From: Alphaproteobacteria bacterium
GTDB lineage: Bacteria > Pseudomonadota > Alphaproteobacteria > Rhizobiales > JAKIUO01
Direction of reading: 5' to 3'
Assembly: GCA_024279115.1 (NCBI GenBank)
Contig: JAJRRW010000026.1
Coordinates: 1-33,791 of the forward strand
DNA: 33,791 nt
The notes below the pieces were generated by a model. The model saw only the letters and a program-made list of their open reading frames with translations. It had not been told where the DNA came from and searched no databases. Positions 3,937-32,692 of the stretch are shown here, piece after piece. Position 1 is the first letter of the stretch, and every line of letters starts with the position of its first letter. Both the position numbers and the translations under genes were made by a program.

Positions 3937-4700
3937 TGGGACAAAAAGTAAATCCAATCGGTATGCGCCTTGGCATTAACCGTACTTGGGACAGTCGCTG
4001 GTTTGCTGATGGAGAAGAATATAGCAAATTGCTACATGAGGATTTGAAAATCCGTGATTTCGTCATGGAAGATCGTCGCCGTGCTGGCATCTCTAAAGTC
4101 ATTATTGAACGGCCCCATAAAAAGTGCCGCGTGACGATCCATACAGCGCGCCCTGGCGTGTTGATTGGTAAAGCTGGCGCGGATATTGCGAAGCTCAATC
4201 AGAAGCTGTCGAGATTCACAGATAGTGATGTTCATGTCAATATCGCCGAAATTCGCAAGCCAGAAATTGATGCAACATTGGTTGCTGAAGGAATTGCCCA
4301 ACAGCTTGAACGCCGCGTGGCGTTCAGGCGGGCCATGAAACGGGCCATGCAGTCGGCGCAACGTTTGGGTGCTCTGGGTATCAGAATTAACAGCTCGGGT
4401 CGTTTGGCCGGTGCCGAAATCGCCCGCATGGAATGGTATCGCGAAGGTCAGGTACCTTTGCATACGCTGCGCGCCGATATTGATTATGGGACGGCTTTGT
4501 CGAAAACCGCATATGGTATTATCGGCCTGAAAGTCTGGATCTATAAGGGCGAAATTCTCGAGCATGATCCCATGGCTCAGGAAAATCGCGCCAAGAAAAT
4601 GCAAGAAGGTGGCGGCGGTGGCCGTGGTCGCCCTGGTGGCGGTGGTCGTGGTCGCCCAGGTGGCGGACCTCGTGGACCGGGCGGGGCACCAAGACGTTAA
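3936..4700 (+). CDS. rpsC: 30S ribosomal protein S3 (uS3)
   Basis: The product starts with the S3 motif [20 protein letters not shown], has a KH domain with [11 protein letters not shown] at about residues 70-85, and a C-terminal domain with [21 protein letters not shown]3 lies at the mRNA entry channel of the 30S head. Its 254 residues exceed the usual 230 or so because of a tail of about 30 residues made almost only of Gly, Arg and Pro (GGGRGRPGG-like repeats). The start overlaps the rplV stop, suggesting coupled translation. Confidence 0.98.
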
Positions 4701-31191: not shown

Positions 31192-31614
31192 ATGAAAGCG
31201 GAAATCAACTGGAAACAAAATGTGCGGTTTGATGCGCTGAGCGAGACCGGTCACAAAATCATCATGGATGGCGCGCCCAAGCATGGCGGCAATAATGAGG
31301 GCGCACGCCCCATGGAGTTGTTGCTGATCGGTATGGGCGGCTGCACCGCATTTGATGTTGTGGGTATTTTGAACAAAGCCCGCACGGAACTGACAAGCCT
31401 GAAAATCGAGCTTGAGGCGGAGCGCGCAACTGACGTGCCAGCGGTGTTTACAAAAATTCATGTGCATTTTATTTTGACAGGCAGCGGACTGAAAGAAAAG
31501 CTGGTGCAACGGGCCATCGACCTGTCGGCCAAAAAATATTGTTCGGCGTCCATAATGCTGGGCCAAACTGCGGATATTACCCATAGTTTCGAAATTATCG
31601 AGCCAACCGCCTAG
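31192..31614 (+). CDS. OsmC-family protein (YhfA-like)
   Basis: The 140-residue product has the OsmC/Ohr fold with two conserved cysteines, Cys51 in GMGGCTAFDVVGIL and Cys117 in AKKYCSASIML. These motifs match the YhfA subgroup of OsmC-like proteins, which have possible peroxidase-like thiol chemistry; the real substrate is unknown. It follows the amidase by 19 bases and ends the suf transcript. A CGCCAA/TTGGCG hairpin (31615-31640) lies at its stop but lacks a T-run. Confidence 0.9.
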   Translation: MKAEINWKQNVRFDALSETGHKIIMDGAPKHGGNNEGARPMELLLIGMGGCTAFDVVGILNKARTELTSLKIELEAERATDVPAVFTKIHVHFILTGSGLKEKLVQRAIDLSAKKYCSASIMLGQTADITHSFEIIEPTA

Positions 31615-31680
31615 CGCCAAAAATCAATTGCAAATTGGCGGTAATAGCCCCATAAGGTCTCACAACATTGAGCAAATTTC

Positions 31681-31767
31681 GCGGGCGTGGTGGAATTGGT
31701 AGACACACAGGACTTAAAATCCTGAGGCCTTTGTGCCGTGCGGGTTCGAGTCCCGCCGCCCGCACCA
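31681..31767 (+). tRNA. tRNA-Leu (UAA)
   Basis: The 87-base gene folds as a class II tRNA: acceptor GCGGGCG pairs with CGCCCGC, followed by A and an encoded CCA (to 31767). The anticodon stem CAGGA/TCCTG (31708-31712 and 31720-31724) encloses CTTAAAA, giving anticodon TAA (31715-31717), and a long variable arm and GGGTTCGAGTCCC T-arm follow. It reads leucine UUA/UUG codons. Confidence 0.97.
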
Positions 31768-32037
31768 ATTTTTTATTTCACGGCTAATCTTTGCTTCGCA
31801 AAGGCCTTCAATGGAGCGGCCAACTGGCCGTCGCCCGGTCGGGCTCTGTGGTGCAGTGTTTGAGTTTGTTGGCTCAAGGTGCGCCATTATTTTATCTCGC
31901 GGCCATTCCACGCTTCGCAAAGGCCTTCAATGGAGCGGCCAACTGGCCGTCGCCCGGTCGGGCTCTGTGGTGCAGTGTTTGAGTTTGTCGGCTCAAGGTG
32001 CACCAATTTTTTATTTCACGGCCATTCCTCGCTTCGC
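31762..32037. repeat. 119-bp tandem repeat starting within the tRNA-Leu 3' end
   Basis: Unit A (31762-31880) and unit B (31881-31999) are each 119 bases; bases 31793-31880 match 31912-31999 with one mismatch. A truncated third copy (32000-32037) begins with 23 bases identical to 31762-31784, starting at the tRNA GCACCA. Each full unit holds CGGCCA/TGGCCG, GCCC/GGGC and TTGAG/CTCAA stems. Frames cross the array, but they are explained by repetition rather than a protein. It may be a remnant of tRNA-targeted integration or a selfish palindromic repeat. Confidence 0.8.
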
Positions 32038-32135
32038 GTGGGCCTGCGCCCATTTTCGTTTATTTTGGCTCACCATTTCTGTCCTTTAGAGGGGGGGCAA
32101 TTTGGGGGTTGCCAATCGGTTCGAATTATAGTAAA

Positions 32136-32151
32136 TTCTGTAATTACAGAA
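32136..32151. promoter_or_regulatory. Perfect 16-base operator-like palindrome before the GbsR/MarR-like gene
   Basis: TTCTGTAATTACAGAA equals its own reverse complement. It lies 22 bases upstream of the regulator ATG at 32174, in the promoter zone, and a closely related site occurs at 32710-32725 before the next gene. That fits an autoregulator operator. Confidence 0.65.
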
Positions 32152-32173
32152 ATAAGTGTATGGAGCTGGACTT

Positions 32174-32692
32174 ATGACACCGATCGTCGAAAAATTTGTG
32201 TTGCATTGGGGGGAGATGGGCGGTCGCTGGGGTGTTAATCGCTCCGTGTCGCAGATCCATGGTTTGCTATATGTGACCCGTAAGCCGATGACCGCCGAGC
32301 AGATCTGCAAAGAGCTCAATATTGCCCGTTCCAATGTCTCCAACAGCTTGAAGGAATTGCAAGCTCTGGGGCTTGTGCACAAGGCGCATGTGATTGGCGA
32401 CCGGCGCGACCATTTCAGCGCTCTTGAAGACGTGCAAGAGACATTCAATGTTATTGTCGAAAGTCGCAAACAGCGTGAAATCGATCCCACCTTGTCCGTC
32501 TTGCGCGATCTTGCTGACGAGGCTGATCGGGAAAAGCACACTGACCCGCATGTCAAACAGCAGATCAACAATATGCTTGGTTTCGTCGACCAGATGTCGG
32601 ACTGGTATGAGGATGTGAAGAAAGTTCCCAATGAGACTTTGATGAAAATGGTCAAGATGGGCAGTAAAATCATCAAGCTGATTGGTCGGTGA
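32174..32692 (+). CDS. GbsR/MarR-family transcriptional regulator
   Basis: The 172-residue protein starts TPIVEKFVLHWGEMGGRWGV and NRSVSQIHGLLYVTRKPMTA, the pattern of GbsR-type winged-helix regulators, followed by a helix-turn-helix with AEQICKELNIARSNVSNSLK and the wing GDRRDHF. A helical C-terminal region (about 100-172) would dimerise or sense a ligand. ATG 32174 with GGAG 9 bases upstream is preferred to GTG 32156. It probably represses itself and the genes that follow, through the shared palindrome. The effector is unknown; choline, as for GbsR of Bacillus, should not be assumed. Confidence 0.88.
   Translation: MTPIVEKFVLHWGEMGGRWGVNRSVSQIHGLLYVTRKPMTAEQICKELNIARSNVSNSLKELQALGLVHKAHVIGDRRDHFSALEDVQETFNVIVESRKQREIDPTLSVLRDLADEADREKHTDPHVKQQINNMLGFVDQMSDWYEDVKKVPNETLMKMVKMGSKIIKLIGR

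Follow-up and report, generated by a model that had tools for sequence, protein, structure and literature searches.

Background

Many bacteria are known to carry short palindromic repeats. In E. coli, the 178-bp repeats of tyrT are reportedly tandem units located directly behind the tRNA gene, each opening with the duplicated 3' end of that tRNA. They belong to one locus in enterobacteria, and rtT RNA is set free from the tRNA transcript as a stable RNA. According to the relevant parts of PMC8250186 and PMC7657543, rtT RNA is a structured RNA of the tyrT operon. Rhizobial genomes contain RIME, Sm-repeats and A/B/C motifs, repeats that lie between genes, keep a conserved secondary structure and have no known function; the sections of PMC2573895 that describe them give no tRNA link and list small-RNA candidates in tRNA-flanking regions. 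For the REP elements, the corresponding parts of PMC6006769 give GT[AG]G as the foot tetranucleotide of the hairpin, and none or few tnpAY1 genes in each alphaproteobacterial genome.

The locus studied here lies in a contig of 33,791 bases (the window, i.e., the whole stretch of DNA analysed) from a 2.83 Mb draft genome in 145 contigs, 98% complete. It is probably an array built from a mobile repeat that is short, palindromic and non-coding, prefers tRNA 3' ends and has grown in tandem at this site.

Results and discussion

The tandem array behind tRNA-Leu(TAA)

The tRNA-Leu(TAA) gene, the presumed insertion target, was located by ARAGORN in the positive strand at 31681-31767, with its CCA encoded at 31765-31767. 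It is preceded by an OsmC-like gene (31192-31614), and a MarR-type gene (32156-32692) lies downstream of the tRNA gene and the array. Two units of 119 bases each, measured from CCA to CCA, occupy positions 31768-31886 and 31887-32005, and a broken third unit extends over 32006-32075, its right border being our own reading; all have the same orientation as the tRNA. The perfect 23-base direct repeat of the initial annotation (31762-31784 and 32000-32022) was exact, the bases flanking its two copies being different (C/T before, T/C after), and the two 119-bp units that it was said to bound were recovered by TRF, which reported 31762-32037 with a period of 119 and 2.3 copies. This repeat comprises the tRNA end plus the leader common to units 1 and 3, whereas the leader of unit 2 differs.

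Unit 1 presented hairpin A at 31782-31806 (GGC/GCC; inside, TTTGC-TTC-GCAAA), a small hairpin B at 31807-31816 (TTC-AATG-GAG), hairpin C at 31817-31830 (CGGCC/GGCCG), hairpin D at 31833-31844 (GCCC/GGGC) and, from its sequence and predicted fold, a tRNA-like tail at 31849-31886 (TGGTGC...TTTGAG...CTCAA...TGCGCCA). The tail of unit 2 ends in GCACCA, as in the tRNA itself. Units 1 and 2 differ at 11 of 119 positions (91% identical), nine of the differences falling in the first 25, and are identical at positions 26-102. In the third unit the leader and hairpin A are retained, hairpins C and D are unrecognisable and a possible tail (...GGCTCACCA) is present; it gave a weak match to the second family model, R2 (see below), at 32007-32103 (19.6 bits, E 1.5e-4), with non-standard pairs. 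Both complete units match the family model, with no non-standard pair among its 16, and the predicted fold of the 276-base stretch reached -106.6 kcal/mol as compared with -90.8 +/- 5.4 for shuffled sequences (2 of 200 as good), which agrees with the several hairpins per unit proposed at first. The window has 62 directly repeated 20-mers, every one of them in the array stretch.

The array is not a simple assembly duplication, because the copies differ and unique sequence is found on both sides. The identity of units 1 and 2 at positions 26-102, together with the identity of the unit 1 and unit 3 leaders, suggests that the units recombined with each other once the array existed. Rfam scans of the whole window at the gathering score, and of 31600-32200 at E<=10, found the tRNA alone above its cut-off. 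Another contig of the same genome ends (right end of C87; L327 and L006) in the GCACCA-leader motif of the window with a longer unit variant, and this end may adjoin the window array or belong to another site. Elsewhere in the window, a 24-base G-rich tandem repeat of about 2.4 copies, probably coding, was found by TRF at 4610-4675.

A structured repeat family in Alphaproteobacteria

The window unit is a member of a structured, apparently undescribed repeat family distributed across Alphaproteobacteria. A search with the window unit found nine places in its own genome and matches in 8 of 61 genomes (its own and 60 relatives), at least one of which (G060) matched just the tRNA end included in the query. 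A covariance model, R1, built on an alignment of 27 of 30 short cores plus one core from G027, matched four of the five genomes of the genus, with 44 matches in the window's own genome, 76 in G002, 59 in G003 and 8 in G001, and 62 of 397 genomes of the order at E<=0.001. R2 matched 18 of 398 genomes of the phylum at E<=1e-4; 16 of them belong to the same class, and the other two gave one weak match each (E 1.7e-5 and 4.0e-5). Note that R2 was trained wholly, and R1 mostly, on tRNA-linked units, so that the tRNA-linked fraction among their top matches is inflated; the sense-only placement described below is not.

The pattern 'tRNA T-arm ... CCA, 4-12 bases, ATCTCRCGGCNNTTC' retrieved 74 loci from named genomes, in 69 of which ARAGORN placed the end of a tRNA at the expected position. 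Carriers named to genus included Mesorhizobium, Aliihoeflea, Hoeflea, Rhodobium orientis, Maricaulis, Marinicaulis, Hyphobacterium, Minwuia, Erythrobacter, Alteriqipengyuania and Roseovarius, all presumably Alphaproteobacteria, plus one record labelled only Pseudomonadota. The open-access literature on tRNA-linked repeats, RIME, REPIN and rtT yielded no description of this family.

The unit begins with a T-rich leader (about 10 bases), followed by a four-hairpin core (about 75 bases) and, in the subfamily of the window, a tRNA-like tail ending in CCA. A long variant (L016, L027, L034 and L036) has its hairpin B region extended by a conserved hairpin (like GTCCTACCGCTTCGCTGTTTGAGGAC). The core was analysed in an alignment, A2, of 55 tRNA-linked units out of the 74 pattern loci, three being left out as too short, five for lack of the core motif, nine as degenerate or odd (by hand) and two others. 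In the 16 pairs of hairpins A-D, 96.8% of 866 cells were standard pairs, against 84.4% in shuffled alignments, and 88 cells were changed on both sides, against 25.4 (0 of 500 shuffles for either). The covariation score was 0.296, compared with 0.092 for shuffled alignments (0/500) and at most 0.047 when the structure was slid along the alignment. The A2 structure was drawn by hand after viewing the sequences, which favours it, and the slid controls fail to reproduce the signal. Softer measures gave smaller differences: 8 pairs with a double change as compared with 5.6 shuffled (17/500 as high), and 19 further pair types as compared with 15.6 (9/500 as high). Hairpin C occurs in A2 as GGCC/GGCC, GGGC/GCCC and GCGC/GCGC, and hairpin D as GCGC/GCGC and GCCC/GGGC. 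A first RNAalifold consensus, in which the B region paired with D and covariation was seen in 1 of 14 pairs, was dropped for the hand-drawn structure on the wider set. The covariation shows conserved pairing, in RNA or in single-stranded DNA alike.

Link to tRNA 3' ends

The window's own genome and its congener G002 contain 76 tRNAs and gave 160 R2 matches, 150 of which were listed. Nine of the 150 follow a tRNA by no more than 15 bases; all nine are in sense orientation and begin 5-7 bases past the end of the tRNA model, while none of the listed matches is antisense behind a tRNA or just before a tRNA 5' end. The chance expectation for such placement was 0.014 (P about 5e-23) under uniform placement, an assumption that is too generous since the repeats avoid genes; a tenfold correction leaves the conclusion unchanged. 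The link with tRNA 3' ends that had been suspected from the window is real and class-wide, and units were found behind other tRNA genes.

Among 99 R1 matches fetched from the genus and order lists (one of them, L138, earlier a seed), 27 were the first unit behind a tRNA with an intact 3' end, 12 were later units of such arrays, 8 stood behind a T-loop..CCA sequence, which may belong to a tRNA remnant or to another unit's tail, 2 were cut by a contig end and 50 had no sign of a tRNA. The hosts of 99 non-redundant first units span 27 anticodons, and the spacing from CCA to TCTC measured 7-10 bases in 96 of these; two others had 12 and one had 15. Tandem arrays of 3-4 units were found behind Ala, Leu and Arg tRNAs. 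Two units of the other subclass stand behind tRNA-Gly(CCC) in the window's own genome (L322, C87:17450-18100), so both subclasses use tRNA ends. Several draft contigs end inside units, which may account for assembly breaks at tRNA genes.

Copies away from tRNAs

Most of the listed R2 matches in the two congeners are scattered away from tRNAs; 54 of the 150 form close inverted pairs, always plus then minus, and 60, overlapping with the former, stand in close same-strand rows. The initial annotation had counted units scattered with no tRNA link against its proposal: the scattering was indeed found, yet the tRNA link is real. The more numerous subclass in these genomes forms inverted pairs around a short spacer (e.g., L108, L324 and L325). 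Of 34 scattered intergenic copies, 21 have their upstream neighbour in sense and 9 in antisense orientation, only a hint in view of the crude ORF caller, which put 86 of the 120 non-tRNA copies within ORFs, many of which must be spurious. Four non-tRNA units in two genomes of one genus (L126 and L131; L128 and L130) lie just upstream, and antisense, of two genes identified by eye as adenosine deaminase-like and thiL-like.

The wider family in the genus of the window is REPIN-like, and the units could be ordinary REP/REPIN elements moved by a RAYT (Y1 transposase), for which tRNA ends are a merely tolerated landing site. The inverted pairs in one fixed order and the tens of palindromic copies per genome agree with this. 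A tolerated site, however, would not be one-sided. The Y1_Tnp profile (PF01797) had no match in the window's own genome, a 98%-complete draft in which absence is no proof, none in G004, one in G002 (E 1.5e-5) and two in G003, whereas G001, with the most Y1_Tnp matches (25), had only 8 R1 matches. Moreover, the GT[AG]G foot, the REP criterion in the part of PMC6006769 cited above, was not found in A2, the foot of whose 55 tRNA-linked units is TCTC(A/G)C-GGC. We regard this origin as unlikely. Because two features that define REP/RAYT systems were not found, in the tRNA-linked consensus and in the window's draft genome respectively, the family was classed as a variant among the short palindromic interspersed repeats.

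Mobility and occupancy of tRNA sites

Sequence identity was compared among 96 of the 99 units. Copies behind different tRNAs of one genome were 89-95% alike in the closest cases, with pairs 93-95% identical behind Leu/Thr, Ser/Glu, Met/Ala and Ser/Ser tRNAs. Mean identity was 0.637 for units of the same genome at different tRNAs (66 pairs), 0.557 for different genomes at the same tRNA (199 pairs) and 0.514 for different genomes and tRNAs (4295 pairs). Of the 96 units, 24 had their nearest neighbour in their own genome (1.4 expected) and 17 had it on the same tRNA of a different genome (4.1 expected), neither being reached in 2000 shuffles; the latter excess implies that some copies are old and were inherited in place. 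Both signals thus exist, and they suggest that copies move within genomes while others have long stayed where they are; part of the likeness between copies could come from gene conversion. Within the genus of the window, the same tRNA in two species gave 0.58, 0.45 and 0.65, against 0.59 at different tRNAs (35 pairs), three pairs being too few to lean on.

The tRNA-Leu(CAA) region of Mesorhizobium, searched in 99 genomes, offered filled and empty sites within one genus: in 20 loci picked by hand, and hence non-random, all had the tRNA, 5 the unit and 15 no unit. The carriers were L308 (two units) and L319, plus the partly decayed L309, L310 and L311. Between the tRNA and the next shared gene lies anything from tens of bases to several kb, which means that other DNA is inserted there as well, and the DNA behind tRNAs without a unit is too diverged to reveal the exact insertion point or a target duplication. 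In some loci without a unit (L302, L312, L313 and L320), the tRNA is followed by another, partly tandem repeat (about GAGCTTCGGGTGGCAGGCCACC).

These observations also bear on the possibility that the units are functional tRNA trailers, whose hairpins would be kept because they act as a terminator, direct 3' processing or yield a small RNA like rtT RNA or the tRNA external-spacer sponges. Their constant sense orientation at a near-fixed distance after the CCA, the strong covariation of the hairpins, the terminator-like look of a tail hairpin followed by T-rich sequence and the lean of scattered intergenic copies towards gene 3' ends, according to crude ORF calls, would all be consistent with such a role. 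On the other hand, the distribution is patchy (9 of 76 tRNAs in the two congeners, 5 of the 20 fetched Mesorhizobium loci), most copies lie away from tRNAs, and DNA palindromes also yield covariation, which makes a trailer function doubtful.

The tRNA-like tail

A second CCA was found 85-165 bases downstream in 76 of the 99 units, the other 23 being outside the tail test. The seven bases before the tail CCA matched the last seven of the host tRNA with a best-match mean of 3.59, as compared with 2.95 when hosts were shuffled (highest of 2000 shuffles, 3.38) and 2.84 in the region further downstream (69 units), a modest match among units that are not independent. The tail equals the host tRNA end at 7/7 positions in L020 (Thr) and in L176 and L197 (Ser). 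Foreign tails were also seen in some recently moved copies: L248, behind tRNA-Glu of genome JANQIJ, ends in ATCTCCGCCA, which is like its host at 2/7 positions and, by eye, at 5/7 like the tRNA-Ser(GGA) of that genome, the host of its sister unit L176; L224, behind tRNA-Ala of JAJRQF, ends in ATACCCACCA, like its host at 3/7 and, by eye, at 6/7 like the tRNA-Met hosting its sister L179, whose own tail is decayed. The host tRNA ends of L248 and L224 are unchanged, and their foreign tails show that the tail moves along with its unit. In G064, L097 and L098, which follow Leu and Thr tRNAs, have one tail in common, with host matches of 4 and 5 of 7. By eye, the likeness of sister units begins at the CCA and ends at or near the second CCA, and in L097/L098 it continues into a next unit. 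The moving piece therefore looks like the stretch from CCA to CCA, with a crossover at or after the CCA, outside the acceptor stem.

Two further features of the tail were weaker. A T-loop-like motif precedes the tail CCA in 30 of 60 units, against 5 of 36 in a control region, and part of this excess may come from a GAAC/GTTC hairpin of other subfamilies. Host-specific complementarity of the left arm was 4.45, compared with 4.24 shuffled (15/1000 as high) and 4.25 in the control region, in a weak test that placed the CCA of tRNAs ending in CCACCA three bases early. A more far-reaching proposal, which we consider quite unlikely, is that of a mobile element living on tRNA genes, a bacterial counterpart of tRNA-linked SINEs: the tail would mimic the T-loop, the acceptor end and the CCA, tRNA maturation enzymes would release the unit RNAs, and the tail would mark CCA ends as targets.

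The initial annotation had compared the direct repeats with attL and attR and considered an integration scar. The tRNA 3' end is indeed present on both sides, and the units appear to be inserted at, and bounded by, such ends; the remainder of that idea, a larger phage or ICE shrunk to the ends left by its integrase, fared less well. The duplication of the tRNA end around the units, a host match above chance, the variable spacing behind tRNA-Leu(CAA) and the copies behind T-loop..CCA remnants (L021, L022 and L024), which would suggest that elements use these tRNAs, are compatible with it. Conversely, one core stands behind 27 anticodons, and in L248 and L224 the right tail resembles another tRNA while the left host end is intact, the reverse of an integration that restores the tRNA. 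No integrase gene is located between the 23-base repeats of the window, the 238 bases there being hairpin units. Blastn with the consensus and the window unit against 50,697 phage and 72,556 plasmid records, and two exact-pattern scans of viral contigs, gave no match; these searches, with no positive control and open to escape by divergent copies, limit rather than exclude a role of phages, plasmids or viruses as carriers. Taken together, such an integrase scar seems very improbable. By eye, units also stand behind apparent ends of integrated elements (T-loop..CCA or a similar remnant) in L021, L022, L024, L028 and L030, four of the remnants being preceded by GGGGGC-rich motifs.

Proposed mode of spread and comparison with known systems

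A tandemly grown palindromic element was, of the three options proposed for the window at first, the one best supported by these results. For the tRNA-preferring mobile repeat that we favour, we envisage that an enzyme would place a copy of the unit, from CCA to CCA, right after the CCA that ends another tRNA gene, and that the tRNA-like CCA end of the unit would make the new right end a target again. Repeated insertion or unequal recombination could then generate tandem arrays such as that of the window. Transcription would presumably make the units part of the tRNA's 3' trailer, and they would do little harm, because they would be trimmed off during maturation of the tRNA. Scattered copies and inverted pairs would be the same repeat away from tRNAs. 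If so, tRNA trailers would join the known sites of mobile cargo, and the family could serve as a simple model for studying how very small elements locate tRNA genes.

With RIME, the Sm-repeats and the A/B/C motifs, compared by description only, the family shares the character of rhizobial intergenic repeats with conserved secondary structure, and it is possible that it corresponds to RIME or the Sm-repeats under another name. It resembles the tyrT/rtT repeats in having tandem units right behind a tRNA gene, but differs from them in standing behind many tRNAs and in being dispersed and mobile-looking, and at the gathering score the window matches no Rfam family other than tRNA. Like the elements that integrate into tRNA genes by means of tyrosine integrases, it is bounded on both sides by the tRNA 3' end; unlike them, it measures about 115 bases, has no genes and carries a tail that travels with the unit. 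It shares with REP/REPIN the short palindromes, present as singlets and inverted doublets in many copies per genome, and is set apart from these by its subset linked to tRNA 3' ends with a tRNA-like tail. What appears new is this subset, which follows the CCA of many different tRNA genes, keeps to one orientation and nearly the same distance, and is provided with a tRNA-like end of its own.
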